A stretch of 64,000 nt of DNA from Bdellovibrionales bacterium (GTDB lineage: Bacteria > Bdellovibrionota > Bdellovibrionia > Bdellovibrionales > Bdellovibrionaceae). Shown piece after piece: positions 27,700 to 64,000 of this stretch. Where the stretch lies: the NCBI GenBank assembly GCA_005793345.1, contig SXSU01000022.1, forward strand, positions 62,001 to 126,000, written 5' to 3'. Position numbers and translations under genes: made by a program. Below the pieces are notes generated by a model that worked only from the letters and a program-made list of their open reading frames with translations, made no database searches and was not told where the DNA came from. The stretch's first letter is position 1. The number at the start of each line of letters is the position of its first letter.

Positions 27700-27765
27700 C
27701 GACCATTTTCGCGTTACTCGCGAATTTGGTCTTGACTTTTTTCGCGAGTAACGCGAAAATGGTCG
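27700..27765. repeat. Locus-1 ATPase upstream inverted repeat
   Basis: Perfect 25-bp arms (27700-27724 and 27741-27765) with a 16-nt spacer. The left arm begins CGACCATTTTCGCG. Each arm also contains its own small hairpin, TTCGCG-TTACT-CGCGAA and TTCGCG-AGTAA-CGCGAA, so the site can form two small stems or one long one. It lies 31 bp upstream of the ATPase ATG. A diverged relative is at 30479. Confidence 0.92.
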
Positions 27766-27796
27766 CAGGAAACTTCTAAGTAAAAAAGGTAAATCA

Positions 27797-29011
27797 ATGA
27801 AGCGATATATTTTGGATGATGTGCTAACACTTGCGCTAAAGAGAAAAAAAATGGCATTTATATCTGGTCCCAGGCAGGTTGGAAAGACAACATTAGCCAA
27901 AGAAATGCAAAAACAATATTCTGAATCAAAATACTTAAATTGGGACGAAAGTGAATTTAGAAAAATATGGACTAAATCTCCAAATAAAATAAAAGAAAAA
28001 TTTGAACTAGAAAAAATAGATCAAACAAGACTTCTAATTCTTGATGAAATTCATAAATCAAAAAACTGGAAACAAAAACTTAAGGGTCTTTATGATGAGT
28101 TAAATGAGGATCTTCAAATTATTGTTACAGGTAGTGCTCGATTAAATATTTTTAAAAAAGGTGGAGATTCATTGTTGGGACGTTATCTATTATTTCGATT
28201 GCACCCATTTTCATATGGTGAACTACTGAATGCGCCAAAAGTTACACCTGAAGTTTGGAAAAGCAACTTATTTGAAAAAAAGTCCACAATAAAAAATGAA
28301 AGAGAGATTTTGGAACGACTTTATAAATATAGTGGATTCCCTGAACCGTATTTAGCCGCTTCAGATAAAATTTTAAAGATTTGGCGACGAGGACGAAATG
28401 AAAAAATAGTTCGGGAAGATTTGCGAGATTTGAGTCGCCTTCCTGAATTAAGTCGGATAGAAATGTTGACAAGTCTCTTACCTGAAAAAGTAGGAAGCCC
28501 CTTAAGTGTGCAAAGTCTACGAGAGGATTTAGAAGTTGCTCATGACACTGTCACACGTTGGTTAAACTATTTAAACCAACTATATTATTTTTTTGAGCTA
28601 AAGCCTTGGACTAAACAAGTTGCTCGAACAATTAAAAAAGAAGGAAAAATTTATTTATACGACTGGACAAATATAGAAACCGATGGCCCACGCTTTGAAA
28701 ACTTTATTGCATCACACCTGTTAAAAGCATGTCATTTTTGGACAGATACAGGCGAAGGAGATTTTAATTTACACTATTTACGAAATAAGGAGAAACAAGA
28801 AATAGATTTCTTAATGGTAAAAGATAAAAAGCCGTGGTTAATGATAGAATGTAAATGGAGTGATACACAAATTGAGTATAAAAAAATTGAGAAATTTCAA
28901 AACTATTTTAATTGTCCTTTTGTTCAAGTAGTATACTCACCAAATATTTGGCGGCTTACTGAAAATCAATTAGTTTGTAGTGCTGATCGTTTACTAGGAC
29001 AACTTCCTTAA
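27797..29011 (+). CDS. AAA ATPase with C-terminal DUF4143/nuclease-like domain (locus 1)
   Basis: 404 aa. Walker A GPRQVGKTT at 24-32, Walker B LLILDEIHK at 79-87, and sensor-like 'IIVTGSARL' fit the AAA_14 group. The C-terminal region has 'EKQEIDFLM…LMIECKWS' (about 334-353), a PD-(D/E)xK-like pattern as in DUF4143 proteins. The family is widespread in archaea and bacteria with no settled function. AAAGG precedes ATG. The gene sits between prmA and a duplicated prmA fragment and behind a large inverted repeat, which suggests an acquired element. It differs in class from the three other window ATPases, which are DUF234-like. Confidence 0.85.
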   Translation: MKRYILDDVLTLALKRKKMAFISGPRQVGKTTLAKEMQKQYSESKYLNWDESEFRKIWTKSPNKIKEKFELEKIDQTRLLILDEIHKSKNWKQKLKGLYDELNEDLQIIVTGSARLNIFKKGGDSLLGRYLLFRLHPFSYGELLNAPKVTPEVWKSNLFEKKSTIKNEREILERLYKYSGFPEPYLAASDKILKIWRRGRNEKIVREDLRDLSRLPELSRIEMLTSLLPEKVGSPLSVQSLREDLEVAHDTVTRWLNYLNQLYYFFELKPWTKQVARTIKKEGKIYLYDWTNIETDGPRFENFIASHLLKACHFWTDTGEGDFNLHYLRNKEKQEIDFLMVKDKKPWLMIECKWSDTQIEYKKIEKFQNYFNCPFVQVVYSPNIWRLTENQLVCSADRLLGQLP

Positions 29012-29019
29012 ATATTAAT

Positions 29020-29201
29020 ATTAAAAAACACATCAATATCTTTATATTTTTGCGATCGCAATTGGGGATCATATTCAAAGTTTTTTTGAACATAGTTTAG
29101 AGCTTCAGAGATACCTTGAGAGTTATGTTTAAAGCACAATAATGTAACTTCTTCTTCGAGATTTGTGAGAATTTTATAGAAGCGAATGCGACAATATTTT
29201 T
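29020..29201 (-). pseudogene. Duplicated 5' fragment of prmA
   Basis: Copy of prmA codons 2-62 in the same orientation as prmA. The frame is intact with no stops or indels, but the start codon is lost and the rest of the gene is missing. Of 15 changed codons, 9 are synonymous and 6 change the residue (Tyr to Cys, Leu to Phe twice, Val to Ile, Ser to Thr, Val to Leu). Mostly silent or conservative change suggests the copies diverged while functional. It starts 9 bp after the ATPase stop. Confidence 0.9.
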
Positions 29202-29381
29202 TTAAAATTATGATTAATGTTGTTATAACTATTTGAATTAAAAAATAAATTCAAACTAGTGACCTTTATTGTCAGAATGTACAAAACTCTACAGTTTTTT
29301 TATGCTTTAACTTACGCTATATTTTTATCGATATCAAAATGAAATTCAAAAACTTTGCAACTGTATCGGAGAATATTTATT

Positions 29382-30302
29382 ATGAAAAAAATAATGGGTA
29401 CTATTTTTTTAATGTTAGCTCCAAACTTAGTAACTGCAGCTTCAGTTTACCATTGCTCAACAGAAGATAATATTTCAAAAATAAGAATAGAAGTTATTGG
29501 AAATGGTAAAGTCAAAATCAATGAAGTTGATACTGCAAAAATGATTAAAAAGGATATCATAAAAAAAGATGGAGTTACTTTTTATAATTTTGATGGGGAT
29601 TCTACATCAAAAAAAATTACTTCGATTGGAGATGGTGTAAAGGGTAATGAAGTAAAGCTTTATTTAACTGACAAGTTAATTAAAGACAACGCTAATGAAT
29701 CTATTAGTATATTTACCATTAACAAACAAGCCAGTAGTGATTCTTCTAATGAAATATCATTTACTTGTTTACCTAGACAATTTTTAACATTTGACGATAT
29801 TTATTTTAAAACTAGTTCTGAAGCTACGGTTTGGTTATCGAAAAAAAGTAAAAAATATCCCACTCTAGTTAATTTTAAATATGAACATCCATTAATTACA
29901 GGCTCTGAAGTTGATTTGAACTATTATAAAACTTTAAAGTTAGATAGTGAATATTTTGGAAAAGTTCATATTGGTTTATTTGCGGATCAGTATAAATTTG
30001 AGAGCAATTTTTATTTAAGTTTACTTGTTAAAATTGACGACGATAAAACAGAAAAAAGTACTGAAGTGAAAACTATATTAGAAAAAAAATTACAAAAGTT
30101 ATTAGAAAAATTGAAATTGCAAAACACTAAGGGAACATTAAATTCAAAAGTAAGAAAAAATTATAAAAATGAAACAGAGGTGCTTGCATCCTTTATAGCT
30201 CCCTTAATGAATGGTGAAACTGATACAGAAGCGGTTGGTTCAAAAGATTTTTTCTATATTCACGCGGATGAACTATATCATATTAGCAAGATAGCAGATT
30301 AA
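29382..30302 (+). CDS. Secreted protein of unknown function
   Basis: 306 aa. Signal peptide 'KKIMGTIFLMLAPNLVTAAS' with a probable AxA-like cleavage site near residue 20. ATG at 29382 is preferred (GGAG about 10 nt upstream); a TTG at 29355 is in frame. The mature part is Lys-rich with one early Cys (YHCST) and one later (FTCLP), perhaps a disulfide. No family recognised. It lies between the prmA fragment and the orphan hairpin at 30479. Confidence 0.65.
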   Translation: MKKIMGTIFLMLAPNLVTAASVYHCSTEDNISKIRIEVIGNGKVKINEVDTAKMIKKDIIKKDGVTFYNFDGDSTSKKITSIGDGVKGNEVKLYLTDKLIKDNANESISIFTINKQASSDSSNEISFTCLPRQFLTFDDIYFKTSSEATVWLSKKSKKYPTLVNFKYEHPLITGSEVDLNYYKTLKLDSEYFGKVHIGLFADQYKFESNFYLSLLVKIDDDKTEKSTEVKTILEKKLQKLLEKLKLQNTKGTLNSKVRKNYKNETEVLASFIAPLMNGETDTEAVGSKDFFYIHADELYHISKIAD

Positions 30303-30478
30303 AAAGTTACGGGGGTATTTAAATATAATCTTATATTTTTAAAATAAATATATTTGGCATGTACTGATTAGTATTTAAATAACCAATCTAATTCAAGTAG
30401 TAACAATGTCTACTTTAAAGAAAAGGGGAGCTTCCTTTACCTCAGTTTTAGTTTATTTTTTTAAATTGGTTTTATTTT

Positions 30479-30513
30479 CCGAACATTTTCGCGCTACACA
30501 CGAAAATGTTCGG
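30479..30513. repeat. Orphan inverted repeat related to the locus-1 hairpin
   Basis: CCGAACATTTTCG (30479-30491) pairs perfectly with CGAAAATGTTCGG (30501-30513) over a 9-nt loop. Its first 26 bases differ from the locus-1 left arm region (27699 onward) at only about 4 positions. It may be a relic of another copy or the far boundary of the locus-1 element. Confidence 0.75.
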
Positions 30514-30539
30514 GACTAGATTCGCGTCAATAATGAGGT

Positions 30540-31133
30540 TTAAGTTAGAAACTTAAAGTGCTGAATGTTAATAAAACCAGAATCAATATTTTTGGACGCT
30601 GTACTTTTAGGGTAGGATAAGGCTAAATTTGTTCTAGCCTCTTTAACTAACGCTTGAAAATCATTTGTGATCCAATCATTAATTTCATTACAATCACTTG
30701 GAGGTGTATCACTTGTGCAATTAAGAATTGCTTCAGTAAATTTTTTATTTATCTCTTGTTCTTTTTTTATATTTTCATGGAGTAGGTTTAAACATTTTTT
30801 TGCAATGGGTTCACGATTTCTATCATAAAAAGGAACATTAAAATTTATTATCCCTGCCTCGGGGCGGTTGTTAAGAGAATCATCTATTTTTTTATTATAA
30901 TCCACTTTTGCTTGCTCGGTGTTTTCATCAATTATTGGTAATGGATTGCAAGCCTTTAAAAAATATTTTGAAGTGTCTGCAAATTCTTGAAAAAGAATTT
31001 CCTTGGTTGATGTAAAGTCTTCTTTGGAGACAGGTGGGGAATAAACTGGACAGTGATTACTTTGTTCTGATTGCAAATCCAAACTAATTAGTACAATTAT
31101 AAAAATAAAAGATTGGATTTTTAATCTACCCAT
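30540..31133 (-). CDS. Secreted protein of unknown function
   Basis: 197 aa with an N-terminal signal-like segment (about 6-22, 'SFIFIIVLISLDLQ'). The mature part is helical and charged with several Cys (HCPVY, KACNP, KKCLN, LNCTS, SDCNE), so it is probably an oxidised periplasmic or exported protein. It begins 7 bp after the end of the 31141 gene on the same strand and is likely cotranscribed. No family recognised. Confidence 0.6.
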   Translation of the reverse strand: MGRLKIQSFIFIIVLISLDLQSEQSNHCPVYSPPVSKEDFTSTKEILFQEFADTSKYFLKACNPLPIIDENTEQAKVDYNKKIDDSLNNRPEAGIINFNVPFYDRNREPIAKKCLNLLHENIKKEQEINKKFTEAILNCTSDTPPSDCNEINDWITNDFQALVKEARTNLALSYPKSTASKNIDSGFINIQHFKFLT

Positions 31134-31140
31134 TTAGTGC

Positions 31141-31701
31141 CTATTGTTGAAGAGCAATATGCGAAGAATCTTTGGGTTGATCTTTTTGTTCAACATTTTC
31201 AATAAACGATCCTTCCAAATCAATCTTATCTCCGACAAAAACTCCTTGAGCTTCTGTTGTTGGAATTTTTGATAGGTCCGCTGTTGTATGCAATCTGGCA
31301 ATGGCCATGTGTGGTTGTACATATATTATTTTTAGCAAAGCAACTGGAATAATCATTTTAATACCATCTTTGTATTTACCATTTTTTGCAACGATAACTT
31401 CTCTTACTACTTTTAAAACCATGTTCTCTTTTATGCCTGCATCTAACCCGCCAGAAATATAATAATCTTTATAAACTTGGTCGTCGTCATTCATAGAGAT
31501 ATTTCTTTGTGTATTTATGACTTCTAAATTTGAACTTAAATCTGTGTGTTTATATGTCTTATTAAATAGCAAATCAGTGTTGATACTATTATTAATGTTA
31601 TTACTGTTTTTCTCTTTTTTGGCAGCAACAGCAATTGATATTTTAGATAATTGCAAACCCACTATCAAACAATAAACTAACAAAACGTTTCTTTTACTCA
31701 T
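31141..31701 (-). CDS. Exported protein, possibly flagellum-associated
   Basis: 186 aa. Signal peptide 'VLLVYCLIVGLQLSKISIAV' ending near AVA-A. An Asn-rich linker precedes a beta domain: 'DYYISGGLDAGIKENMVLKV', 'MIIPVALLKIIYVQPHMAIARL', 'VGDKIDLEG'. That pattern of a small barrel ending in 'GDKI' resembles the C-terminal region of FlgT-type flagellar proteins. Together with its position divergent from fliC this hints at a flagellar link, but similarity is by eye only. Confidence 0.55.
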   Translation of the reverse strand: MSKRNVLLVYCLIVGLQLSKISIAVAAKKEKNSNNINNSINTDLLFNKTYKHTDLSSNLEVINTQRNISMNDDDQVYKDYYISGGLDAGIKENMVLKVVREVIVAKNGKYKDGIKMIIPVALLKIIYVQPHMAIARLHTTADLSKIPTTEAQGVFVGDKIDLEGSFIENVEQKDQPKDSSHIALQQ

Positions 31702-31912
31702 ATATGCAACCCTTTCCTTGGTTGCAACCTTCCTTAGTCGCTTATTCTCTGAATCCTTCCTTGGGCTTCAAATTAAAGTGTCTTATTTTGATATACTTCT
31801 TTCGGTTCCTGTCAAAATTTATGAAGTCCAGAAGTCTACAATTGAAATAAATTTTTAATCTCGATCAAAGTCCACGACAAAAAAATGACGAAAAAGTGCA
31901 AAATCATGTCCT

Positions 31913-31971
31913 TTGTCTCGTAAAGAGACAATGAACTTCTCCCGAACAAGTTCATGTCAAAAGGATGACAT
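31913..31971 (+). promoter_or_regulatory. Three successive hairpins in the fliC leader region
   Basis: TTGTCTC/GAGACAA (31913-31919, 31925-31931), TGAACTT/AAGTTCA (31932-31938, 31948-31954) and ATGTCA/TGACAT (31954-31959, 31966-31971) lie back to back, about 190 bp before fliC. They could structure a long 5' untranslated region or serve as operator sites. Confidence 0.45.
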
Positions 31972-32163
31972 TTCAAAACTCGTAACAAAAGGAGGCTCAA
32001 GGAAGATTTAACTAAAAAAGGAAAGTTTGCTCTTGCAATGAGGTTGGTTCTAACTTGCAAGAAGGTTTAAAAGGTGAATTTGGATGTTCACTCAAAACAA
32101 TTAACAGGGAGGTCAATATGAATAAAGTAAATTATTATTAATAAACCATAAAAGGGGATAAAA

Positions 32164-32997
32164 ATGGGATTTAGAGTAGCAACAAATCTTTCTGCGATTA
32201 ATGCACAAAGAAGTTTAACTGGTTCACAAAGAAACATCAACAAAAGCATGGGGCAATTATCAAGCGGTAGCAGAATAAATATCGCAGCTGATGATGCCGC
32301 TGGTTTAGCGATTTCAGAAAATATGAAAGCGCAAATCAGATCTGCAAGACAAGCTAACAGAAATGCGAATGATGGTATTTCAATGGTACAAACTGCTGAG
32401 GGTGGATTGAATGAGATTTCAAACATCATTATCAGATTAAGAGAATTGGGTATCCAAGCTGCTTCTGATACTGTTGGTGAAAAAGAGCGTGGATTTCTGA
32501 ATAAAGAGGTTCAACAATTAAAAGATGAAATGCAACGTATAGCAAGCGTTACAACTTGGGGTACAACTAAGTTACTTGATGGCACAACTCCTGCGTTTGA
32601 TTTCCAAGTGGGTATCTATAACAATGATGTTGAAGATCGCATTACTTTTAATGCCTCAGAAAACATTGCAACTTTAGACGCTCTTGGATTAACAGATGTT
32701 GATTATACTACTAAAGAGGGTGCACAAACTGCCCTAGAGTCTTTAGACATTTCACAAACAACTGTGAATGGAATGCGCGCTAATCTTGGAGCTTTACAAA
32801 ACAGATTAACTTCGACAGTAGATAACTTAGCTGTTGCTGAAGAAAACTTAAGTGCTGCAAATTCACGAATTCGTGATACAGATGTAGCTCAAGCTTCTTC
32901 TGAAATGACTAGAAATAATATATTGTTGAATGCTTCTACTGCTACTTTAGCTCAAGCAAATAGTGTTAACCAAATGGCTTTAAAGCTATTAGGATAA
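32164..32997 (+). CDS. fliC: Flagellin
   Basis: Filament subunit, 277 aa, short class. The N-terminal D0/D1 region (MGFRVATNLSAINAQRSL, 'LSSGSRINIAADDAAGLAIS') and the C-terminal D1/D0 region ('ANLGALQNRLTSTVDNLAVA', 'DTDVAQASSEMTRNNILL', 'ANSVNQMALKLLG') are both complete. A reduced variable centre sits between. AAAGGGG lies just before ATG. A tiny upstream frame (ATGAATAAAGTAAATTATTA) with its own GGAGG at 32108-32112 could be a leader peptide. A strong terminator follows. No other flagellar genes are adjacent. Confidence 0.95.
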   Translation: MGFRVATNLSAINAQRSLTGSQRNINKSMGQLSSGSRINIAADDAAGLAISENMKAQIRSARQANRNANDGISMVQTAEGGLNEISNIIIRLRELGIQAASDTVGEKERGFLNKEVQQLKDEMQRIASVTTWGTTKLLDGTTPAFDFQVGIYNNDVEDRITFNASENIATLDALGLTDVDYTTKEGAQTALESLDISQTTVNGMRANLGALQNRLTSTVDNLAVAEENLSAANSRIRDTDVAQASSEMTRNNILLNASTATLAQANSVNQMALKLLG

Positions 32998-33026
32998 TAG
33001 AGTTAAAGGTAATTAATTTAAACAAG

Positions 33027-33058
33027 AAAAAGGCTGTCAAAACTTGACAGCCTTTTTT
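33027..33058 (+). terminator. Rho-independent terminator after fliC
   Basis: GGCTGTCAA (33032-33040) and TTGACAGCC (33044-33052) form a perfect stem with a 3-nt loop, flanked by A5 and T6 runs. Confidence 0.95.
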
Positions 33059-33066
33059 GTTTTCAA

Positions 33067-33347
33067 AATAACTGCTCATGATTAAGTCTGATCAGCTTGC
33101 GCTGATTATATCAGACATAATCATAAGCAGTTATTTTCCTGTTTGTTTGGGGCGATTTTCAATCACCCCGTATTATGAAAATCCAAACTAAAGTTTGTAT
33201 TTTCATAATAACTGCTCATGATTAAGTCTGATCGCTTAGCGATTATATCAGACATAATCACAAGCAGTTATTTTCTTGTTTATTTGGGGCGATTTTCAAT
33301 CACCCCGTATTATGAAAATCCAAACTAAAGTTTGTATTTTCATAATA
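33067..33347. repeat. Composite hairpin repeat, two B-C-A units in reverse orientation
   Basis: Module A at 33067-33135 and 33207-33272, each followed by module C (GGGGCGATT/AATCACCCC) and module B (ATTATGAAAAT…ATTTTCATAAT). Read on the minus strand this is B-C-A-B-C-A. The apical stem of A differs between the two copies (ATCAGC-TTGC-GCTGAT versus ATCGC-TTA-GCGAT) but pairing is kept. It separates fliC from ATPase locus 2. Confidence 0.9.
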
Positions 33348-33361
33348 AAGAAAGCGTACTT

Positions 33362-33490
33362 TATAATCAAATAGATAAAACATCGGATTTATAATTTGAT
33401 TACAAACCCGATGTTTTATCTATTTGATTATACTATTATCTTGCAAAAGTAAAACATCGGATTTATAATTTGATTACAAACCCGATGTTT
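33362..33490. repeat. Locus-2 ATPase upstream hairpin pair
   Basis: Hairpin 1 has perfect 25-bp arms (33362-33386 and 33408-33432) around a 21-nt loop. Hairpin 2 (33452-33490) repeats its inner 39 bp exactly: AAACATCGG and CCGATGTTT around the same loop. The second ends 4 bp before the first possible ATG of the ATPase gene, and AAGG follows it directly. Confidence 0.95.
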
Positions 33491-33500
33491 AAGGATGAGC

Positions 33501-34979
33501 ATGTACATTCAACGAGAAGAAACTGAAAAAATTTTAGAAAGCTACTTATTGAACAAACAGCGAACAGCTAGCCTATGTTTTCTTAGAGGACGTAGACGAA
33601 TTGGCAAATCAACTTTGCTAAAAAGAATTGCAAATACATTAAATGTTCCATCGTTTTATTTTATGGGTGCTGATGATGAACCGCAGGCTCAGTCAGTAGA
33701 TCGTTGGATTACTGAGTGGATTAAAATTTATCCCAAAACAAAACTTCCGATGTACTCAAAAACTAAATTGAGTTGGAAAATAATATTTGAAGAGATTATT
33801 CAGTATGGCATTGAAAATAAAAAAACCACCCTTGGAATTTTTATAGATGAGATACAATGGGTGGCTAAATCAAAATCAGGATTTATTGGACAGTTCAAAG
33901 AAGCATGGTTAGAGCTTGAAAAACTACCAAATTTAAAATTTATTTTTTGTGGGTCCTCAAATAAGTTTTTTTATGATTATTCGGGCGGTGAGGAAACAAT
34001 TTTAAGAGGATTGTGTACCCATGATGATATATGGGTCAGTGATTTTAATTTAAAAGTACTAAGGGAAAATTATGGGAGAGAGTGGACACTAGAAGAAACT
34101 GTATTTTCTTTAATGTCTCTTGGGGGCGTTCCTTACTATTGGAACCAAGTTGTTGAGGAACAGTCATTTATCAACTCGTTTAATATATTGTGCTTCACAC
34201 AAAAAACTATTTTTTTAAAAGAAGCCGCAGAGATGCTCAGGTTAGAATTTAATGAAGCTGGAACAGAAACTGTTTTGAATATTATAAATGCGATAGGTAT
34301 TCACGGAAAAGAATTGAACTCAATAATAGAAAAGACAAATATTCCTGCATCAACAGTTATTGATACAATAAAAAAACTATTAAATTATAAACTAATTCAC
34401 GAAAAAAAGTTTTATGAATTGAGTATGAAAAAAAACAAAAGGGGGACGGTATTTTTAATTTCAGATCCCTACTTAAACTTTTATGTCGAAGTGCTAGTCC
34501 CTCTTCAGAGAAAAATTAAAAACAATTTAGGTAATAAATTGTTATTTGCAGATATCTTAAAATCAAAAAGTGGATACTATATAGAAAACTACTCTGGATA
34601 TGCTTTTGAGAGATTAATAATAAAAATATTGGAAAAGCATACTGACCGAAAAGAAAAAATATTTTCACTAATCGGAATTCAAGACTGCGATTATCATGTT
34701 TCAAATTTAAGTTCAAAAGAAATACAAATTGATATAGTGATTCATAATACTTCAGACAGAGTAATTAGATTAATTGAGTGTCGCTGGACTCAAAGTAGTA
34801 ATAGTATAATTGAATTAGCAAAAAATTATGAGTATAGAGCTCAAATATTTATAAATAAATTTAACATTAAAGAGCCTATAAAAAAATATATAATTACTAA
34901 CTGCGCACTTACATCTGATACAAAGCAAAGTATCAATAAAAGTAAAGTAAAAATTTTAAATTTAGAGACGTTAATCTAA
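33501..34979 (+). CDS. AAA ATPase with C-terminal DUF234/nuclease-like domain (locus 2)
   Basis: 492 aa. Walker A RGRRRIGKST at 29-38, Walker B 'LGIFIDEIQW' near 110-119, 'FIFCGSSNKFF' sensor region, and a winged-helix-like middle. The C-terminus has 'IQIDIVI…LIECRW' (about 408-428), a PD-(D/E)xK-like pattern seen in DUF234 proteins. ATG at 33501 is favoured by AAGG at 33491-33494; ATG at 33495 would be too close. The region is AT-rich with many rare-looking AAA/ATA codons, like a transferred gene. No partner gene is adjacent; the hairpin pair abuts the start. Confidence 0.85.
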   Translation: MYIQREETEKILESYLLNKQRTASLCFLRGRRRIGKSTLLKRIANTLNVPSFYFMGADDEPQAQSVDRWITEWIKIYPKTKLPMYSKTKLSWKIIFEEIIQYGIENKKTTLGIFIDEIQWVAKSKSGFIGQFKEAWLELEKLPNLKFIFCGSSNKFFYDYSGGEETILRGLCTHDDIWVSDFNLKVLRENYGREWTLEETVFSLMSLGGVPYYWNQVVEEQSFINSFNILCFTQKTIFLKEAAEMLRLEFNEAGTETVLNIINAIGIHGKELNSIIEKTNIPASTVIDTIKKLLNYKLIHEKKFYELSMKKNKRGTVFLISDPYLNFYVEVLVPLQRKIKNNLGNKLLFADILKSKSGYYIENYSGYAFERLIIKILEKHTDRKEKIFSLIGIQDCDYHVSNLSSKEIQIDIVIHNTSDRVIRLIECRWTQSSNSIIELAKNYEYRAQIFINKFNIKEPIKKYIITNCALTSDTKQSINKSKVKILNLETLI

Positions 34980-35007
34980 TCTAAAGTAATTACATATCTC
35001 TAAAAAA

Positions 35008-36576: not shown

Positions 36577-36714
36577 ATTATCCTCCATGATAAAACGAGT
36601 TAATCCATGCAATCCATGTAAACATTGTGACTATAAATTAATATAATTTTATTTCCATCAAATTAAAAAAAAATGAAAAAAAGTAGCCTACTGTAAATTT
36701 GTTATACAGTTTAA

Positions 36715-38151
36715 TCATTTATCAACTAATGAACCTATGCGGATAATTTTTGTAAAATAAGATTGAATTTTATGGGAATCGTTTGGATCAATTTCACCTT
36801 CATATATTAAAACTGGTCTATATGACCAGTTTCTTTTCTTTGTCATTTTACTTATTTTATTTTCAACTTCTTTAATAATTTTAGAATCAATTCTTCGTTG
36901 AAATTTAATTTCACAAATATAAGCATTTTGATCAGTTGTTTGGATGAGTAAGTCGATTTGGCATGCCCCATTGTTGTGGGTCGTTTTACTTTGAAAATAA
37001 GGAGATGCTGATATTATTAAATTTGCGGAAAGATTCATTTCCTCTAGAAATTCTGTAATGTGATTATATACTAAATTTTCAATTTGAAATCCTACAATTG
37101 AGTGCCAATTTGAAAGCATTTCGAGGGTTGTGAATTCACTATTTAAAGCCTTTGATCTTACTTTCGTATCCTCGATATATTTTAATGAAAACCTCAGAAA
37201 ATTATCTTTAATACGGAAGGTTGATACTCGAGCCTTTTTACTACCGATTTCAAATCGGTAATCTCGGCTTAAAAATCCAGCGATTTCTAAATCTTTTAGA
37301 TCATCTAATAAAGAGGTGGCTAGTTTAAGCTGAAGTTTTTTTGCAATTTCTGCAGCAGATAAATTTTTATTTACTAAACAAGTAATAATTTTTTTATAAG
37401 TTTTAGTTTTTTTTCCAAAAATGTCAGAGAATATTTTATTAAATTCATCATGTAAAAATCCGGAAGGCCTAAAGCAAAGATCTTGAATGTTTTCATCAGT
37501 AGAAATTGCAGGATTAATCTCTTCGAGATACTTTGGAATGCATCCTATTACAGATAATAGTCTCAGCTTCTCATATGAACTGACCTTTGCGCCCCACTCC
37601 TTCCAAAATTTTGAAACTACATTAAGAGGAAGTTCGTTTAGAGTAATGTCCCTTGAGACTCTTCCCACAAAGTTTGTTGAGTTTAAAATATTTTTTTGAA
37701 TCCAAGTTGAAACTGAACCACATAAAACCAGAATCAAATTGTTGTTCTTTTTAAACTTAGTATCCCATACAACTTTTAACTTTCCAGAAAAGTCAGGGTC
37801 ATGGTTTCCCATCCAAGATATTTCATCAAGTAAAACTACAGTTTTTTTCTTCTTGTTTGTATGAGAGGCTAATTCTGAAAAAGCCTCATTCCAGTCTGAA
37901 AAATTAGGGTTTTTTGTTTTAAATTGTTCATTGAATTGAAAAGTAAATTGGTTTAGTTGATCTTGATTCGTTTGCTTTGGTCTTGGAGCAAGACCTGAAA
38001 ATTCAAAAAAGAGCTGACCTTTTTGCGAGCCAAAAAATTCAATTAAGGTACTTTTCCCTATTCTTCTCCGCCCTTTTATTACAACTAAGCTACTAGTTTC
38101 TTTAGTGAGAAGCTTATTTAAGTCACTTAACTCTGAATTTCGGCCCCACAT
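36715..38151 (-). CDS. AAA ATPase with C-terminal DUF234/nuclease-like domain (locus 3)
   Basis: 478 aa. The N-terminus MWGRNSEL matches the family's usual '[FY]xGRExEL' start. Walker A KGRRRIGKST at 26-35, Walker B 'TVVLLDEISWMG', 'LVLCGSVSTWI', and C-terminal 'ACQIDLLIQT…YICEIKFQRR' complete the architecture of P-loop plus PD-(D/E)xK-like domain. ATG at 38151 is chosen; its Shine-Dalgarno GAGG lies in the right arm of the upstream hairpin, followed by five T. An in-frame TTG at 38166 lies inside the hairpin. Clearly related to locus 2 and to the locus-4 fragment. Confidence 0.87.
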   Translation of the reverse strand: MWGRNSELSDLNKLLTKETSSLVVIKGRRRIGKSTLIEFFGSQKGQLFFEFSGLAPRPKQTNQDQLNQFTFQFNEQFKTKNPNFSDWNEAFSELASHTNKKKKTVVLLDEISWMGNHDPDFSGKLKVVWDTKFKKNNNLILVLCGSVSTWIQKNILNSTNFVGRVSRDITLNELPLNVVSKFWKEWGAKVSSYEKLRLLSVIGCIPKYLEEINPAISTDENIQDLCFRPSGFLHDEFNKIFSDIFGKKTKTYKKIITCLVNKNLSAAEIAKKLQLKLATSLLDDLKDLEIAGFLSRDYRFEIGSKKARVSTFRIKDNFLRFSLKYIEDTKVRSKALNSEFTTLEMLSNWHSIVGFQIENLVYNHITEFLEEMNLSANLIISASPYFQSKTTHNNGACQIDLLIQTTDQNAYICEIKFQRRIDSKIIKEVENKISKMTKKRNWSYRPVLIYEGEIDPNDSHKIQSYFTKIIRIGSLVDK

Positions 38152-38155
38152 AAAA

Positions 38156-38251
38156 ACCTCAGTCAACGTATAATTCTCTGTTTACTGAGGTGATTCTATT
38201 CATTGAAAAAACCTCAGTCAACGTATAATTCTCTGTTTACTGAGGTTTTTT
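38156..38251. repeat. Locus-3 ATPase upstream hairpin pair
   Basis: A 36-bp hairpin occurs twice exactly (38156-38191 and 38211-38246, period 55). Arms ACCTCAGT…ACTGAGGT with one internal mismatch. The distal copy is extended by A and T runs (38206-38251) and has the form of an intrinsic terminator for tex on the minus strand. The proximal copy ends in T5 directly before the ATPase start. Confidence 0.95.
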
Positions 38252-38255
38252 GTAG

Positions 38256-49374: not shown

Positions 49375-49514
49375 ATTATGAAAATACAAACTTTAGTTTG
49401 GATTTTCATAATACGGGGTGATTGAAAATCGCCCCTAACAAACAGGAGAATAACTGCTTATGATTATGTCTGATATAATCGCGAAGCGATCAGACTTAAT
49501 CATGAGCAGTTATT
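49375..49514. repeat. Composite hairpin repeat, single B-C-A unit
   Basis: Module B (from 49375), module C (CGGGGTGATTGAAAATCGCCC) shortened at its edge, and module A ending at 49514. The apical stem of A is ATCGC-GAA-GCGAT here. This is the cleanest single-unit copy in the window. Confidence 0.9.
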
Positions 49515-49520
49515 TTGTAA

Positions 49521-50440: not shown

Positions 50441-50477
50441 TTTTAATTCCTTTTTAAGGCAAACAAGCAAAAAAATG

Positions 50478-51068: not shown

Positions 51069-51142
51069 AATTATAACTCCAGCGGTTTACAAGTATACCA
51101 AGTGATAAAAGTTTTGAAGTGAAAACAACAATTATAACGCGC

Positions 51143-51240: not shown

Positions 51241-51290
51241 TGTGCGCAACGAGTATAGACAAATACTTTAAATAAATTTAAGTTTTTTAA

Positions 51291-52526: not shown

Positions 52527-52543
52527 CGAGTGAACTTCACAAA

Positions 52544-55147: not shown

Positions 55148-55196
55148 AGAATTAGTTAATTGCCATTTGTTGTATATATACATAAACTTTTACGTT

Positions 55197-55697
55197 ATGA
55201 AGCCAAATCATAATATTAATAAAGAAGAATTATTACAAAAACTCATTTCACAAGTTGAGAAAGAGTTGGCTGTTGCCATACAAGCTGCAAGGACCGCTCA
55301 TGAAGATGCTACAAATGAAGAGAGTAAGCCTGAAAACGAATACGACACTCGTGCACTTGAAGCTTCATATGTGGCGCGAGGCCAAGCAAAGCGTGTTGCC
55401 GATCTCAAAGAAATGTTATTTGAATTCAAAAGAATTAAAATTAAAAATTTTGATGATAACGAACCAATTACAGCTACAGCATTTATTGCAATTGAATCGG
55501 AGCAAAATAAAATTCAAAATTTATTTTTTCTCCCCTTGGGAGGGGGGTTTTCTGTTGAATTAGATGGTGTAAAAGTTCAGGTGGTCACACCTAGTACGCC
55601 ACTCGGCCAAGCCTTGTTGCAAACAAAACTTGGAGATATTATTCAGGTTAATTTAGGTGCGGCTGTTAGAGAGTACGAAATCATTTCGGTGCAGTAA
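55197..55697 (+). CDS. GreA/GreB-family C-terminal domain protein
   Basis: 166 aa. The N-terminal half is helical and may form a coiled-coil ('EKELAVAIQAARTAHEDATN', 'YVARGQAKRVADLKEML'), as in Gre factors. The C-terminal half is FKBP-like beta ('FFLPLGGGFSVELDGVKVQV', 'VTPSTPLGQALLQTKLGDII'), with the P-x-S-P-L-G-x-A-L-x-G/K-x-x-x-G-D pattern. Transcript cleavage or another role cannot be decided. ATG at 55197 avoids a hydrophobic upstream stretch. It overlaps the convergent gene by 17 bp. Confidence 0.82.
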   Translation: MKPNHNINKEELLQKLISQVEKELAVAIQAARTAHEDATNEESKPENEYDTRALEASYVARGQAKRVADLKEMLFEFKRIKIKNFDDNEPITATAFIAIESEQNKIQNLFFLPLGGGFSVELDGVKVQVVTPSTPLGQALLQTKLGDIIQVNLGAAVREYEIISVQ

Positions 55698-56841: not shown

Positions 56842-57145
56842 ATATAATACCTCAATGTGATTTGAATCTACTAGTTTTCTATTCGGAGGTAGTTGTTATT
56901 ACTTTAATTAAGAAAAATTCACTTTTGCTTAAGCACGACTAAAGTTTAATATAAATAAAATAAAAAATTGAGTTTTGCAGGCGTCGAGGAATTGCTAATT
57001 AATTTTAATCTTCGACAAAGGTCTAGTCTGTGTATAAATAAAGCGAGTTAAATTAATAATTAGAATTATAGGACATCGCTTCGCAACTTGCTCAAACCTT
57101 CCTTTAGATAGATACTTTTTGGACCAACCATGGAGTATTCATTTT

Positions 57146-58519: not shown

Positions 58520-58561
58520 TCAAATACTCGAATAATTTTATTATATAAGGGAGAGTGATTT

Positions 58562-59962
58562 GTGGATTTAATTGATGCTGCCCGAGAGTTAATTGCAATT
58601 GATACTTCGCCAGACAGTGGTACACGAGAAGTAGCTCAATGGTTAAAAACAAAAGCAGAGCAGTTAAATCTAGATTTTCTAGATCAAGAAGATTCGTTCA
58701 ATGGTGTTGAGCAATCAAATGTGATGATATCAGTAAAAGATTTACTTCAAGATGAATCAAAATTTAATGAAGATTTCTTATTAGTATCTCACCTTGACAC
58801 TGTTGATCCTGGTTCGGGTTTATTATGGACAGAAAACCAATTTAATCCGTTTAACTTGATAATTAAAGATGGGTACCTGCACGGTTTAGGAGTTGCCGAT
58901 GGAAAACTTGATTTTTTATGCAAACTCGAGGCCCTATCACAATGGCAAAACTCTGAATATCAGGATCGTAGTACCAAATTGATTCGTCGGCCTGTGCTGC
59001 TTGGGACATACGGTGAAGAAATTGGTATGCATGGTATGCTTAGATATATTAGAAAAAATAAAAATAAAAATAAAGCTAAGTATGCATTGATTGGTGAGAC
59101 AACAGATCTTAATATTATTCATGGCACAAAAGGGTATGCGGTAATAGAAATAAAAATTCCATTTTCTAAAGAAGAGCAAGCTTATCGTTCTCAACATGAT
59201 TTATCTGAATCAGCAACTACTCAAACAAGAATTTTTAATGCTACAAACTTGAAAGAAAAAGGCGGTTATTGGTCTACTAAAGAAAATGCCATTGATAAAA
59301 TATTTAAATATTTACTTCAAATTCCTGAAGGCATTGTACTAATGGAAGTAGATGCAGGAGTAAGTCATAATGTTTTTCCACTGCATGGAATGGTTGAATT
59401 TGATGTTGTAAGCGGTATTCAAAATACTATGGCACAAAAGCTTAAACAATTATATTATTCATTGACTGAACTTCGAGGGCAATTTTTGAGATTTAATGAT
59501 GCTGAGTTTTCACCCTCGCAACCTCAATTAAATATATCAACTATTAAAACAGTTGAGGGAGAATTATATTTAACTGCTATGTTTTTGTTCCCACCATTAG
59601 TTACAGAAATTGATTATCAAAACTGGCTAAACCAAATTAAAGATTATGTCCAACTTAATTTGAATGGAGATATTAGATTAGTAGATTACAAAAAACCATA
59701 TAAAATATCTAAAGATTCTGATTTTATCAAAAAATGTTTAGAATTATCTAAGGAAAATAATTTATCATGTGATTTAATTACTTTACCTAAAACAAATGAA
59801 TCAAGTTTATTGAGTCGCATTGGTGTTGAGTGTATTTCGTTTGGTGCTGGCATAAGAGAAGGCAATACGCATTCGCCTTCCGAAATGGTCAAAATAAGTG
59901 ATTTAAATTTATCTGTTGAGTTTTATAAGAAGGCGTTATCTAAATTTTGTATAGGAGAGTAG
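58562..59962 (+). CDS. M20-family metallohydrolase (deacylase/desuccinylase-like)
   Basis: 466 aa. M20 motifs: 'LLVSHLDTVDPGSG' (metal His), 'GLGVADGKLDF' (bridging Asp), 'GTYGEEIGMHG' (catalytic Glu-Glu), 'LIGETTDLNIIHGTKGY', and near the end 'GNTHSPSEMVKI' (metal His). A dimerisation domain lies between. In an arginine-succinyltransferase context it may replace AstE, the usual M14-type succinylglutamate desuccinylase; that is inference. GTG start with GGGAGAG upstream. It ends 1 bp before astA. Confidence 0.8.
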   Translation: MDLIDAARELIAIDTSPDSGTREVAQWLKTKAEQLNLDFLDQEDSFNGVEQSNVMISVKDLLQDESKFNEDFLLVSHLDTVDPGSGLLWTENQFNPFNLIIKDGYLHGLGVADGKLDFLCKLEALSQWQNSEYQDRSTKLIRRPVLLGTYGEEIGMHGMLRYIRKNKNKNKAKYALIGETTDLNIIHGTKGYAVIEIKIPFSKEEQAYRSQHDLSESATTQTRIFNATNLKEKGGYWSTKENAIDKIFKYLLQIPEGIVLMEVDAGVSHNVFPLHGMVEFDVVSGIQNTMAQKLKQLYYSLTELRGQFLRFNDAEFSPSQPQLNISTIKTVEGELYLTAMFLFPPLVTEIDYQNWLNQIKDYVQLNLNGDIRLVDYKKPYKISKDSDFIKKCLELSKENNLSCDLITLPKTNESSLLSRIGVECISFGAGIREGNTHSPSEMVKISDLNLSVEFYKKALSKFCIGE

Positions 59963-59963
59963 A

Positions 59964-61013
59964 GTGGGGTTTTTAATTCGCGCTATCCGAAGTGATGATA
60001 TTCATCAAATGACTGATCTTACTAAACAGTTTCATCTCATGAATTTACCAGGGGAACGAAAAGTTTTATCCGATAAAATTGAAAGAAGTGTTGCTTCATT
60101 TGCTGGGGATTTACCAAAAGAAAAATCTGAATATATTTTTGTAATAGAAGATACTGAAGAAAAATTAATAGTTGGAAGTTCGCTAATTATTGCAAAACAT
60201 GGCAATGAAGATGTGCCTCATACTTTTTTTAAAGTAATCAAAAAAAATCATTTCAGTGAAGATTTAGGTATTGGATTTATTCATCAGATTCTTCGATTTC
60301 AAATGGACATGGATGGTCCTTCAGAAATTGGTGGACTACTCATTGATAAATCTTATCGACGAAGACCTGAAAAATTAGGTAAACAAATTAGTTTTGCAAG
60401 ATTTAATTATATTGGATTGTTTCCAGACCGATTCGAAGAGCGTTTACTTTGTGAGCTTACTCCTCCACTTACAGATGAGGGTCGAAGTGAATTCTGGGAA
60501 GCCTTAGGTCGAAGATTTACTGGGCTCCCTTATCAGGAAGCAGATTTGCTGAGCCAAAGTCATAAAGAATTTATTCAAAGTTTATTTCCCGAAGAAGATA
60601 TTTATGTATGTTTACTTGAAACAAAAGCACGTACAGTCATTGGTCGAGTCGGTGAAGCTACAAAACCCGCTCAGTACTTGCTAGAGAGCGTAGGTTTTAG
60701 GTATCTTGAAGAAGTAGATCCTTTTGATGGAGGACCTCATTACGGAGTGCAAACTAAAGATTTAATTCCAATTCAAACTGGAGTGAAAGCCCAAGTAACA
60801 GAATTTAAAGATGCTGTTTACAAGCACCACGGTTTGGTTGGCTTAGATACTGATTATTATCGTTGTACACATACTCCTTTTGATTTGCGTGGTAATGAGA
60901 TTGCACTTCCTCCGCAAACTTTAAAATTGCTCGAGGTTGAACAGGAGCAAGAAGTTTATATCAATTCATGGTCTGCAGTAAGTTCAAATCATAAGAGAGA
61001 GGGTGCTTTGTGA
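59964..61013 (+). CDS. astA: Arginine N-succinyltransferase
   Basis: Transfers succinyl from succinyl-CoA to arginine, first step of the AST route. 349 aa, near the 344 aa of the enterobacterial enzyme. Motifs: 'IRAIRSDDIHQMTDLTKQ', 'SEIGGLLIDKSYRRRPEKLG', 'LLCELTPPLTDEGRSEFWEA', 'GRRFTGLPYQEADLLSQ' and 'YLLESVGFRYLEEVDPFDGG'. GNAT-like fold. GTG start after GGAGAG. It overlaps astD by 4 bp. Confidence 0.9.
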   Translation: MGFLIRAIRSDDIHQMTDLTKQFHLMNLPGERKVLSDKIERSVASFAGDLPKEKSEYIFVIEDTEEKLIVGSSLIIAKHGNEDVPHTFFKVIKKNHFSEDLGIGFIHQILRFQMDMDGPSEIGGLLIDKSYRRRPEKLGKQISFARFNYIGLFPDRFEERLLCELTPPLTDEGRSEFWEALGRRFTGLPYQEADLLSQSHKEFIQSLFPEEDIYVCLLETKARTVIGRVGEATKPAQYLLESVGFRYLEEVDPFDGGPHYGVQTKDLIPIQTGVKAQVTEFKDAVYKHHGLVGLDTDYYRCTHTPFDLRGNEIALPPQTLKLLEVEQEQEVYINSWSAVSSNHKREGAL

Positions 61014-62533
61014 GTGATATATTAAACAAAAAAAATAAATTTGAAACAAGATATAAAGGTGATTACATCGACGGAATATTTAAGGCACCTGAATTTGAAA
61101 GCGGGTCCTTTAATGATGTGTCGCCTTCAGATACTTCTGATATTTTAATGAATGTTGTTTTTGGGTATGATCATGTTGATGAAGCTTGCCATATTGCTAA
61201 AAAAGCCTTTTTAAAATGGTCAAGACTTACACAACCTCAAAGGTCTGAGTATTTATTAAAACTAAAAGAAGTCTTTATTGCCCATGAAGAGCAAATGGCT
61301 GAATGTATTTCTCGTGATACAGGAAAACCTTTATGGGAGGCTATGACCGAAGCAAAAGCACTTAGTCAAAAAATAGATGTTACCCTTCAACACTCTATGA
61401 AATTGGTTCAAACTGAAATTATTCAAAATGCATTACCTCAAGTTGATGGAGTCATCCGATATAAAGCCAGAGGAGTTATGGCTGTTGTTGGACCATTTAA
61501 TTTTCCTGCACATTTACCAAACGGTCATATTATTCCTGCGCTTGCAATGGGTAACACTGTGGTCTTTAAACCTAGTGAGCAAACACCAGCAGTTGGACAA
61601 TTATATGCTGAATTGATTCATAAGGCAGGATTGCCCCAAGGGGTTTTTAATATGGTTCAAGGAGATGGAGAGTGTGGACGAAAGCTTGTCATTAACGAAG
61701 ATATAAGTGGAATTTTATTTACCGGAAGTTATGATGTTGGTTTAAGAATTAAACAAGAAACCATGACTCATTATTGGAAGATTTTAGCTCTTGAAATGGG
61801 TGGAAAAAATGCCACTGTAGTTTGGGAAGATGCTGATTTAGACAAAGCTGTTTATGAAACTTTGATTGGATCTTTTTTAACGGCTGGTCAAAGATGTTCT
61901 TGCACGAGTCGAGTAATATTACATGATAAAATTGCCGAAGAATTCACCGAACGCTTTTATCAAGCTGCAAAAAAAATCTCAATTGGCCACTGGAGTGAAA
62001 ATGTTTTTATGGGACCATTAATTAATGGAGTAGCTGTAGAAAAATACTTACGATTTCAGGAGATCGCGAAAAGAGAAAATTGTGAAAGCTTAATGCGTGG
62101 GAAAACATTAGAAATGCCACATAAAGGTTTTTATGTAACTCCAAGTATATATCTTGTGAATGGGTTTAATAAAGAATCTGTTTATCAAAAAAGTGAAATT
62201 TTTGGTCCTAATGTAGCAATATATAAATCAAATGATTTTAATGAAGTAATGAATATCGTAAACTCAACAGGATATGGTTTAGTACTAGCCCTGTTTTCAA
62301 AAAATAAAAGCTTATATGAAGAAGCAGTTGTGCAAGCAAATGTTGGACTTTTAAATTGGAATAGAACAACAAATGGAGCAAGTTCACGATTACCTTTTGG
62401 CGGAACTGGAAAATCAGGAAATGATCGTCCATCTGCACATTTTGCAATTCAATATTGTACAGTTCCAATGGCGAATCTCGAAGACCCAACTCCATTTGAT
62501 CCTTCCAAAGTAATGCCTGGTTTGGGATTTTAA
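61010..62533 (+). CDS. astD: N-succinylglutamate 5-semialdehyde dehydrogenase
   Basis: Aldehyde dehydrogenase, 507 aa. 'VVGPFNFPAHLPNGHIIPAL', 'GNTVVFKPSEQTPAVG', 'ILFTGSYDVG', the catalytic Glu in 'ALEMGGKNATVV' and catalytic Cys in 'TAGQRCSCTSR' are intact; the 'GPFNFPAHLPNGHI' block is typical of AstD. GTG start overlaps the astA stop, so translation is coupled. mltG starts directly at its stop codon. Confidence 0.92.
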   Translation: MSDILNKKNKFETRYKGDYIDGIFKAPEFESGSFNDVSPSDTSDILMNVVFGYDHVDEACHIAKKAFLKWSRLTQPQRSEYLLKLKEVFIAHEEQMAECISRDTGKPLWEAMTEAKALSQKIDVTLQHSMKLVQTEIIQNALPQVDGVIRYKARGVMAVVGPFNFPAHLPNGHIIPALAMGNTVVFKPSEQTPAVGQLYAELIHKAGLPQGVFNMVQGDGECGRKLVINEDISGILFTGSYDVGLRIKQETMTHYWKILALEMGGKNATVVWEDADLDKAVYETLIGSFLTAGQRCSCTSRVILHDKIAEEFTERFYQAAKKISIGHWSENVFMGPLINGVAVEKYLRFQEIAKRENCESLMRGKTLEMPHKGFYVTPSIYLVNGFNKESVYQKSEIFGPNVAIYKSNDFNEVMNIVNSTGYGLVLALFSKNKSLYEEAVVQANVGLLNWNRTTNGASSRLPFGGTGKSGNDRPSAHFAIQYCTVPMANLEDPTPFDPSKVMPGLGF

Positions 62534-63673
62534 ATGAGAATTTTTTTAAGCTTTATCGTAGTGATCTTTGGTTTGCTGGGTGGTTTCTATTATTTTATCA
62601 CCCAAGACTATTACGTAAGAAGTATTTCAAAAGATAAAACACCTATTATTTTTGAAGTCAGTAGTGGTGAAAGTTTTATTGAAATCGCAAGAAATCTTGA
62701 ACTAAAAGGTTTAATTGATAATCAACATTTATTTAATTTAGTGGCTAAGTTAAAAAATCTTCGCTCAAAAGTAAAAGCTGGTGAATATCAACTTACGCCT
62801 TCGATGACACCAAAAGAAATTCTTCAAGTGTTAATAAGTGGAAAAAGCATATTGCATACGTTTACTGTTTCAGAGGGACTCAATATTTATGAAGTGGGCT
62901 TAGCTTATGAAAAACAAGGCTATGGCCGCAAAGATTTATTTTTGGAAGCCTGTTTTGATAAAGAATTATTAAAAAGAATTTTAGGTGAAGAACTGTATAG
63001 TTGCGAAGGATATTTGTTTCCTGAAACATATAACATTGATAAAAAAACATCGGCAAGTCAGTTGGTAGAAATCATGTTAAAAATGTTTGTTAAAAAATAT
63101 ACTGAATCCACTCAGGATTTAAATTTAGTGGGATGGACCCGTCATCAAATTGTAACTCTTGCAAGTATTATTGAAAAAGAAACTGGAGCAAAGGAAGAGC
63201 GACCTATTATTTCTTCAGTATTTCACAATCGCTTAAAAAAGAGAATGAAATTACAAACTGATCCAACGGTTTTGTATGGAATTTTAGATCAAACAAAATC
63301 TTATCGCGCAAATATAACTAAAAAAGATTTAACCACACCTACTCCATTTAATACGTACACAAATGAAGGGTTACCATTTGGTCCGGTCTCAAATCCTGGT
63401 GTTGAGGCGGTAAGGGCAGTGTTTAATCCTGCGGAAACTTCGTATTTATTTTTTGTAAGTAAAAATGATGGTACTCATGTTTTTTCAGAAAGGTATGAAG
63501 ATCATTCAAAGAGTGTAACTCAATTTCAAATTGATAAAAAAGCAAGAGAAGGAAAATCATGGCGAGATCTTAGTGATAAAAAAGAAGATGCTGTCATATC
63601 CATTTCAAAAGAAAAAAAGTCTGGAAAAGACAAAACGAGCGCGACCACCAAAAATAAGAAAACAAAAAAATAA
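62534..63673 (+). CDS. mltG: Endolytic murein transglycosylase MltG
   Basis: Inner-membrane enzyme cutting nascent glycan strands. 379 aa. One N-terminal transmembrane segment (about 3-22), LysM-like part ('SGESFIEIARNLELKGLI'), and the YceG catalytic region: 'LASIIEKETGAKEERPIISS' with the catalytic Glu, 'LQTDPTVLYG' and 'TYTNEGLPFGPVSNPG'. A Lys-rich C-terminal tail follows. It begins at the base after the astD stop, an odd partner for arginine catabolism, and lies ahead of the locus-4 hairpins. Confidence 0.93.
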   Translation: MRIFLSFIVVIFGLLGGFYYFITQDYYVRSISKDKTPIIFEVSSGESFIEIARNLELKGLIDNQHLFNLVAKLKNLRSKVKAGEYQLTPSMTPKEILQVLISGKSILHTFTVSEGLNIYEVGLAYEKQGYGRKDLFLEACFDKELLKRILGEELYSCEGYLFPETYNIDKKTSASQLVEIMLKMFVKKYTESTQDLNLVGWTRHQIVTLASIIEKETGAKEERPIISSVFHNRLKKRMKLQTDPTVLYGILDQTKSYRANITKKDLTTPTPFNTYTNEGLPFGPVSNPGVEAVRAVFNPAETSYLFFVSKNDGTHVFSERYEDHSKSVTQFQIDKKAREGKSWRDLSDKKEDAVISISKEKKSGKDKTSATTKNKKTKK

Positions 63674-63700
63674 CCTTAACTTGATAGACTTTCAAAGTTA

Positions 63701-63792
63701 CCCTATAAAAAGAGAAAAAATCTTTTTGTAGGGGAGAATATATATGATACTATCTCCCCTATAAAAAGCAAAAGGTTCTATTTATAGGGGAG
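63701..63792. repeat. Locus-4 ATPase upstream hairpin pair
   Basis: Hairpin 1: CCCTATAAAAAGA / TCTTTTTGTAGGG (63701-63713, 63721-63733), one mismatch. Hairpin 2: CTCCCCTATAAA / TTTATAGGGGAG (63754-63765, 63781-63792), perfect. The shared motif recurs with period 56. The right arm of hairpin 2 supplies GGGGAG, followed by T5 and ATG at 63798. Confidence 0.93.
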
Positions 63793-63797
63793 TTTTT

Positions 63798-64000
63798 ATG
63801 ACATCTAAACCATCACTGTCCATCTAGGGACGAGATAATGAGCTTAAAAAACTAATGTTATTGAAGCAAAAAAATACCTCAAGTCTAGTAGTAATGATGG
63901 GGCGACGTCGAATTGGAAAGAGTTATTTACTAAAAAAATATGCCGAAAGCTTCTCAAAAGTTTTTTTATTTGATGGATTAGCCCCACATGAAAAACAGAC
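63798..64000 (+). pseudogene. AAA ATPase fragment with early amber codon (locus 4), continues past window
   Basis: From ATG at 63798 the tenth codon is TAG (63825-63827). The frame then continues GRDNELKKL, 'SSLVVMMGRRRIGKSYLL' (Walker A) and 'LFDGLAPHEKQ' to the window end, closely like locus 3 (WGRNSEL, KGRRRIGKST, SGLAP). The TAG sits exactly where locus 3 has the Trp codon TGG, so one base change created it. Either the gene is dead, or it starts later at an in-frame ATG without a ribosome site. Confidence 0.8.

Follow-up and report, generated by a model that had tools for sequence, protein, structure and literature searches.

What is the purpose of a palindrome that stands in two copies directly ahead of an ATPase gene, and why is its sequence a different one at each such gene? 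The question is raised by a 64,000-nucleotide stretch of a Bdellovibrionales bacterium (contig SXSU01000022.1, positions 62,001 to 126,000; hereafter the window), which belongs to a 3.96-Mb draft genome of 138 contigs. Four loci in the window carry such pairs. Their genes are of two classes, class A being AAA_14 plus DUF4143 ATPases (the gene at 27797) and class B being DUF234-type ATPases (the genes at 33495, 36715 and 63798). We report that the unit that is repeated is a short palindrome in its own right, and that its sequence varies between paralogs while the spacing of the two units is conserved. We consider it fairly probable that each of these genes is a self-repressing, one-gene ATPase-nuclease system whose private operator pair insulates it from the others, and it may serve in defense.

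Private palindromes at conserved spacing

At locus 1, the class A gene (27797-29011, plus strand, AAA_14-DUF4143, 404 amino acids) is preceded by a perfect inverted repeat at 27700-27765 on the same strand, with 25-bp arms (27700-27724 and 27741-27765) that are 100% complementary. Its two units, O1 (the upstream one; 27708-27724) and O2 (the one nearer the gene; 27741-27757), are both palindromic and lie 33 bp apart. Locus 2, also on the plus strand, has a distal palindrome at 33362-33432 (34-bp arms, 94% complementary) that holds O1 (33376-33416). An identical 41-bp copy 74 bp downstream, O2 (33450-33490), is followed by a gene of the ATPase_2/AAA_14 plus DUF234 type (33495-34979, with its ATG at 33495 or 33501). 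The gene of locus 3 (ATPase_2/AAA_14, 36715-38151) is on the minus strand, so that 38151 is its start and 36715 its 3' end. Its proximal unit O2 (38152-38191, minus strand) is 40 bp long, and the distal unit O1 (38207-38250, minus strand), 55 bp away, contains an identical 40-bp copy at 38207-38246. This O1 sits about 5 bp past the tex stop codon, is terminator-like and may double as the tex terminator. Locus 4, on the plus strand, has O1 at 63701-63743 and O2 at 63757-63799, 56 bp apart and 77% identical. O2 ends in ATG, and the gene (63798-64000), assigned to class B by genome searches, runs past the window end. An in-frame TAG at 63825-63827 is codon 10 counted from the ATG at 63798, and the frame is open again from a downstream ATG; decay of the gene or a downstream start is possible. 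The initial annotation placed private palindromes ahead of the ATPase gene at all four loci, with a period of 55-74 bp at the last three. Both statements hold, the periods being 74, 55 and 56 bp, with the gene of locus 3 on the minus strand and its palindromes at 38152-38250.

Profile searches of the same genome yielded 41 class A and 14 class B open reading frames, of which 38 and 14 were usable, that is, had 160 bp of upstream sequence without N. The genome holds about 50 copies of the two ATPase-nuclease families, with PF13173 matches at 60 places; 8 PF13173 matches and 7 further PF01637 matches beyond the first 38 and the 14 were excluded from the seeds. The 116 class A genes from other genomes are best-scoring matches rather than a random draw, and come from 80 regions in 7 genomes, 30 search loci and 13 loci of named metagenome-assembled genomes (MAGs) of several phyla. 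Thirteen class B genes from other genomes were used in the upstream comparison and the spacing scans (27 with the 14 of this genome).

Inverted repeats were scanned from -150 to +20, with a strict threshold score of at least 12. This score was reached by 20/38 (53%) of the class A and 13/14 (93%) of the class B genes of this genome, as against 3% and 2%, respectively, of dinucleotide shuffles (0-3% over all the gene sets). Among control genes, it was reached by 7% of 240 from the same genome (10% of the 146 of these with at least 100 bp of intergenic sequence) and by 2% of 151 from other genomes. A second measure, at least 11 of 13 symmetric positions, was satisfied by 13/38 class A and 10/14 class B genes of this genome, 29/116 class A genes of other genomes and 7/20 plasmid genes, and by 11/278 controls. 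Twelve controls from this genome are listed with a score of at least 14: one repeat is shared with a divergent ATPase gene, seven represent a dispersed repeat, one control gene encodes an ATPase from a third AAA family, and no explanation was found for the remaining three.

Two observations adjoin these counts. A third set of AAA ATPases (374-380 amino acids, with no DUF4143 or DUF234 match) is represented by L046 (C73:39220), L043 (C57:36835) and L041 (C88:50433); a private palindrome lies upstream of the first two, and tandem direct repeats upstream of L041. Divergent class A pairs with one common intergenic region are found at C135:49386-50506 (L004/L015), C102:2578-3633 and C116:34823-35857.

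The palindromes are private where this was searched genome-wide, namely for loci 1, 2 and 3. Those of loci 2 and 3 have no copies in the 3.96-Mb draft besides their own two each. The arm of locus 1 occurs nowhere else in the draft save for one match with three mismatches, which is at control level, as its reversed control pattern gave one match per strand. Identical hairpins ahead of unrelated genes, which would speak against a dedicated site, were accordingly found for none of the three.

In spite of this divergence in sequence, the distance between the two units is kept. Among the 154 class A genes scanned, it was 31-33 bp in 43/72 genes with a repeat score of at least 9 and in 32/40 with at least 12, the 33 bp of locus 1 obeying this rule; a shuffled set twice as large gave 2/42 and 0/1, respectively. 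For class B (27 scanned), 18 of the 22 genes scoring at least 14 had a spacing of 54-59 bp (9/12 in this genome and 9/10 in others), and 15 of the 22 one of 54-56 bp, the exceptions being 74, 85, 85 and 63 bp. Only 7/277 controls had a repeat score of at least 14, and their spacings were scattered. These counts, and the promoter counts below, assume that translation begins at the first ATG; for a few genes (e.g. locus 4 and C57) this is incorrect. Strict helical phasing is not claimed: whole turns of DNA are approximated by 31-33, 74 and 85 bp, and 55 bp is about 5.2 turns. Divergent sequence at conserved spacing would point to a protein assembly of set reach.

Promoters, leaders and the mobility of the genes

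Many of the palindromes lie at candidate promoters, which are predictions from a scan for sigma70-like consensus elements, as the leaderless starts and domain folds described below are also predicted. Sites scoring at least 15 were found for 43% of 169 ATPase genes, compared with 9% of shuffles and 13% of 253 controls. At locus 1, the promoter-like site (27732-27760, plus strand) has its -35 element TTGACT (27732-27737) between O1 and O2 and a weak -10 element, GAAAAT, at 27755-27760. O2 of locus 2 contains the TATAAT of the predicted promoter, and at locus 3 the best-scoring -35 lies inside the inner arm of O1, with the -10 between O1 and O2. Overlap of a palindrome with the predicted promoter of its own gene, as expected of an autorepressor, is present as an enrichment and not in every gene.

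The predicted -10 element of class A genes ends 4-10 nt 5' of the ATG in 16/38 genes of this genome and 48/116 of others (64/154 together), versus 24/278 controls, and the Shine-Dalgarno core is scarce (13% in this genome and 9% in others, versus 37% of controls). Judged from these sequence features, many class A messages are probably leaderless, and where this is so the palindrome cannot form a leader hairpin. Control at the RNA level, by a hairpin in the leader that prevents translation or terminates transcription, is improbable. O1, moreover, is about as symmetric as O2 (medians of 14: 10 vs 8 and 10.5 vs 10.5, on a center chosen on O1, which favors O1), and the conserved spacings of 31-33 and 54-56 bp have no evident RNA reason. 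Such control fits class B better, in which 1/14 genes has a -10 at that distance from the ATG, the Shine-Dalgarno core is present in 50% of 14 and, given the predicted starts, much of O2 would often fall within the leader; the resemblance of the distal copy of locus 3 to a tex terminator also speaks for it.

The second alternative is a selfish mobile or homing element, whose palindromes would be insertion or cleavage sites and whose nuclease would move the gene. The distribution of the genes lends it some color. DUF4143 was present in 32/59 genomes (this one included) at 0-38 copies, with 38 in this genome and 2, 24, 2, 0 and 2 copies within one genus. Class B was found in this genome and 3/98 others, with 14, 9, 7 and 4 matches, some of them fragments. 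This genome and two others (G023 and G034), three of the four class B carriers and those in which DUF4143 was counted, each have more than 20 DUF4143 matches. Named matches of the 27797 protein include Oligoflexia and Bdellovibrionales MAGs, besides other phyla. The tex gene was present in 39/39 genomes searched, and the 25 tex loci compared had no match to the 33495 protein, G023 being the sole other genome among them with any class B gene. A class B gene is thus absent after tex in the other genomes compared, yet no precise empty site was seen. Because of the uneven copy numbers and the absence at the compared tex loci, we conclude that gain and loss of the ATPase genes is frequent and concerns single genes, in most cases with no repeats at their flanks.

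Mobility by the palindromes themselves is nevertheless doubtful. A unit recurs within 2 kb downstream in just 1/52 genes, which speaks against flanking transposon ends and leaves nearly all of these genes without the terminal repeats of a transposable element; the proposal of a recombination system made in the initial annotation is unsupported on this count. The three palindromes searched are not present as empty sites elsewhere in the genome, and there is no transposase-like domain among the window proteins. Viral contigs had no match for the locus 1 protein, and two phage-collection records contain remote homologs.

As for the surroundings of the four loci, the adjacent genes PrmA, flagellin, Tex and YceG are housekeeping genes by Pfam, the neighbors at 29355 and 35008 have no Pfam match, and no Rfam family was found in the window at gathering scores. 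A dispersed palindromic repeat of about 137 bp (AATAACTGCTCATGATTAAGTCTGAT...ATCAGACATAATCA with GGGGCGATTTTCAATCACCCC) occurs at 33060-33348, 3731-3871 and 49415-49489. The first of these comprises about two tandem copies directly 5' of the 33495 ATPase gene, and a half-element had 47 matches in the 425.5 kb of this genome that were examined.

Linkage of palindrome and protein

In a mixed set of genes, an upstream Smith-Waterman (SW) score of at least 20 was reached by 2/3675 pairs at 25-50% protein identity, which is near background, by 7/96 at 50-60%, by 7/29 at 60-70% and by 1/3 above that. Five class B pairs from different genera, at 44-73% protein identity, have palindromes in common, and most of the upstream DNA that can be aligned consists of these. 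This tracking of the ATPase across genera argues against the palindromes being operators of separate regulators, which we hold to be quite unlikely. One private operator per gene would need one regulator each, and no regulator family was found among the Pfam-scanned window neighbors, two of which (29355 and 35008) had no Pfam match. What speaks for separate regulators is that self-binding by the ATPase is itself a proposal.

The arrangement extends in part to plasmids. Twenty class A homologs on named plasmids, with annotated starts, have as a set a common dyad center about 18.5 bp before the start, at which mean symmetry is 0.50 against a background of 0.27; seven genes have their best inverted repeat exactly there, and several carry the same CCTTGCA...TGCAAGG repeat. 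With relatives collapsed to 13, the best common center scores 0.432, narrowly above the maximum of 0.426 among 200 shuffle sets. The best spacing in this set is 21-23 bp in 8/20, some of them low-scoring, a figure reached in 0/300 shuffle sets. The hosts include Rhizobium, Mesorhizobium, Runella, Spirosoma, Thioflavicoccus, Thiothrix, Pseudomonas, Treponema and Thermus. One class A gene, on a Roseivivax plasmid (L212), has four iteron-like, phased direct repeats of about 22 bp, and is followed by a restriction endonuclease gene and qatA. Among seven class B plasmid homologs, one of them haloarchaeal, five have an upstream inverted repeat scoring 9-15; of the other two, one has a repeat (score 12) that overlaps the gene start and one has no repeat. 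A score of 12 is reached by 3/7.

The class A protein has predicted features of both a regulator and a nuclease. The 27797 protein matches PADLOC PDC-S01 (E 2.9e-52, residues 8-358 of 404), and the 33495 and 36715 proteins match PDC-S27 (E 3.7e-46 and 9.8e-87), the former also having a DUF234 match above the Pfam cut-off. D337, E351 and K353, which we take to be the PD-(D/E)XK nuclease motif, are invariant in a 13-row alignment, in agreement with an AAA ATPase joined to such a nuclease. The AlphaFold model of the 27797 protein has a mean predicted local distance difference test score of 79.2 (five models, 45.8-79.2), or 86.9 for the C-terminal half modeled alone, and is predicted to fold as AAA+ domain, helical lid, winged helix and alpha-beta nuclease core. 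Its AAA+ domain is nearest to folds of the clamp-loader and origin recognition complex (ORC) type (Z 9.8-12), the best clamp loader giving Z 12.0 and a root-mean-square deviation (rmsd) of 2.9 over 123 residues, and it alone was clearly matched in a search with the whole model. Structural alignment pairs the predicted winged helix with IscR, TtgV and a Rrf2-family regulator (Z 6.3-7.0; rmsd 1.5-2.0 across 51-56 residues). The predicted nuclease aligns at Z 6.4-8.2 with ancillary nucleases of CRISPR (clustered regularly interspaced short palindromic repeats) systems, Can2 and Card1 among them, and with McrC, and also with restriction enzymes, the best being the type III CRISPR DNA nuclease 6sce (Z 8.2, rmsd 3.4 over 124). 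By sequence, solved relatives gave only weak, chance-level matches. The 33495 protein weakly matches profiles of CRISPR regulators in their C-terminal part, with CARF3 at E 6.8e-6 and Csa3 cas_HTH at E 0.0045, far below cut-off.

A replication-initiator-like role, in which AAA+ and winged helix act on phased repeats as in plasmid Rep or Orc1/Cdc6 and promoter repression is a by-product, is highly unlikely, since the ORC-type likeness of the AAA+ domain and the iteron-like repeats of about 22 bp in some plasmid homologs are set against tens of dispersed chromosomal copies and invariant nuclease motif residues.

A self-repressing ATPase-nuclease and its relatives

We infer the following from these observations. 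In one chain, an AAA+ ATPase would be joined by a winged helix of the repressor type and by a PD-(D/E)XK nuclease, and private operators O1 and O2 would flank the core promoter of its gene. The protein would bind both of its own operators, probably as paired dimers at a distance set by the protein assembly, and when bound would shut its own promoter. The class A palindrome would act as DNA and not as a leader hairpin, the mRNA being often leaderless. Loss of repression, for example on phage entry or DNA damage, would then release a burst of the ATPase-nuclease, from which a role in defense could follow. About 50 paralogs in one cell must not silence one another, and their operators would therefore diverge, which would explain private palindromes with conserved spacing. 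The self-recognition or autoregulation suggested in the initial annotation is in keeping with the promoter overlap, the conserved spacing and the predicted repressor-type winged helix, and with palindromes that follow the protein lineage in part of the set and are private where searched.

Several results weigh against this self-repression. Only 34% of the 116 class A genes from other genomes reach an inverted-repeat score of 12 and about two thirds do not, so that the finding from which the initial annotation expected a refutation, homologs without upstream hairpins, is made in part. The -35 element lies between the unit centers in just 13/23 class A genes (5/6 class B) with a pair and a scored promoter. 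In class B, O2 may be partly transcribed and may have a role as RNA there. None of 15 class B pairs at 46-60% identity shares upstream DNA at SW of at least 18, upstream DNA and protein agree on the closest partner in only 11/27 class B genes, and the partial r of 0.13 for co-variation of the winged helix with the palindrome, relative to other domains, points neither way. There is one 54-bp pair among the seven class B plasmid homologs, so the evidence for the 55-bp rule comes from this order. Structural Z scores below 8 are weak, and a Foldseek search with the C-terminal half of the 27797 model gave no match at E <= 0.001.

Several known systems resemble the proposed one in part. Controller proteins of restriction-modification systems, lambda cI and tetR autoregulate through palindromes over their own promoters, some with leaderless messages, but are small regulators without ATPase or nuclease domains. 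McrBC combines AAA+ with a PD-(D/E)XK nuclease, but in two proteins. The predicted nuclease fold of the 27797 model is nearest to chains that we take to be those of Can1, Can2 and Card1; Can/Card proteins carry CARF sensors, whereas the DUF4143 protein of the window has no CARF match in Pfam or PADLOC.

The initial annotation described these families as having no established function. This can be sharpened, as they are PADLOC single-gene phage-defense candidates; according to the main text of the paper concerned, PDC-S01 ranked fourth among the most common defenses across prokaryotes, and validation is pending for most such candidates (PMC12988326). PDC-S01 and PDC-S27 are the same families as ours by hidden Markov model, with an ATPase fused to a PD-(D/E)XK-superfamily domain, but no description of upstream operators was seen in that main text, where the terms 'promoter' and 'palindrom' occur 0 times (PMC12988326). 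The closest likeness in regulation is RptR of an Escherichia coli defense island, a repressor that binds a palindromic site within direct repeats of a defense promoter (PMC12255303). RptR is a small regulator on its own and has a single short conserved site (PMC12255303), whereas here a predicted repressor-like domain and a nuclease are in one protein, with a site per paralog. Full-text literature searches, with subscription papers and preprints outside their scope, showed, among the papers listed and in part judged by title, no description of such operators for DUF4143, DUF234, PDC-S01 or PDC-S27 proteins.

A bolder and decidedly speculative extension is that PDC-S01 and PDC-S27, which rank among the commonest uncharacterized prokaryotic genes, are one-protein repressor-nuclease switches that use the private palindrome pair for two purposes, as off-switch and as self-mark. 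The site resident in the cell would silence the nuclease, loss of the gene or a flood of incoming DNA would free it, and each copy would be an insulated sentinel or addiction unit, with tens of orthogonal ones per genome. A lineage-linked operator pair with conserved geometry at the gene's own promoter offers a handle on what PDC-S01 and PDC-S27 proteins bind and when they are made, and makes their function accessible to simple binding and reporter assays. One genome, moreover, offers many candidate orthogonal repressor-operator pairs.

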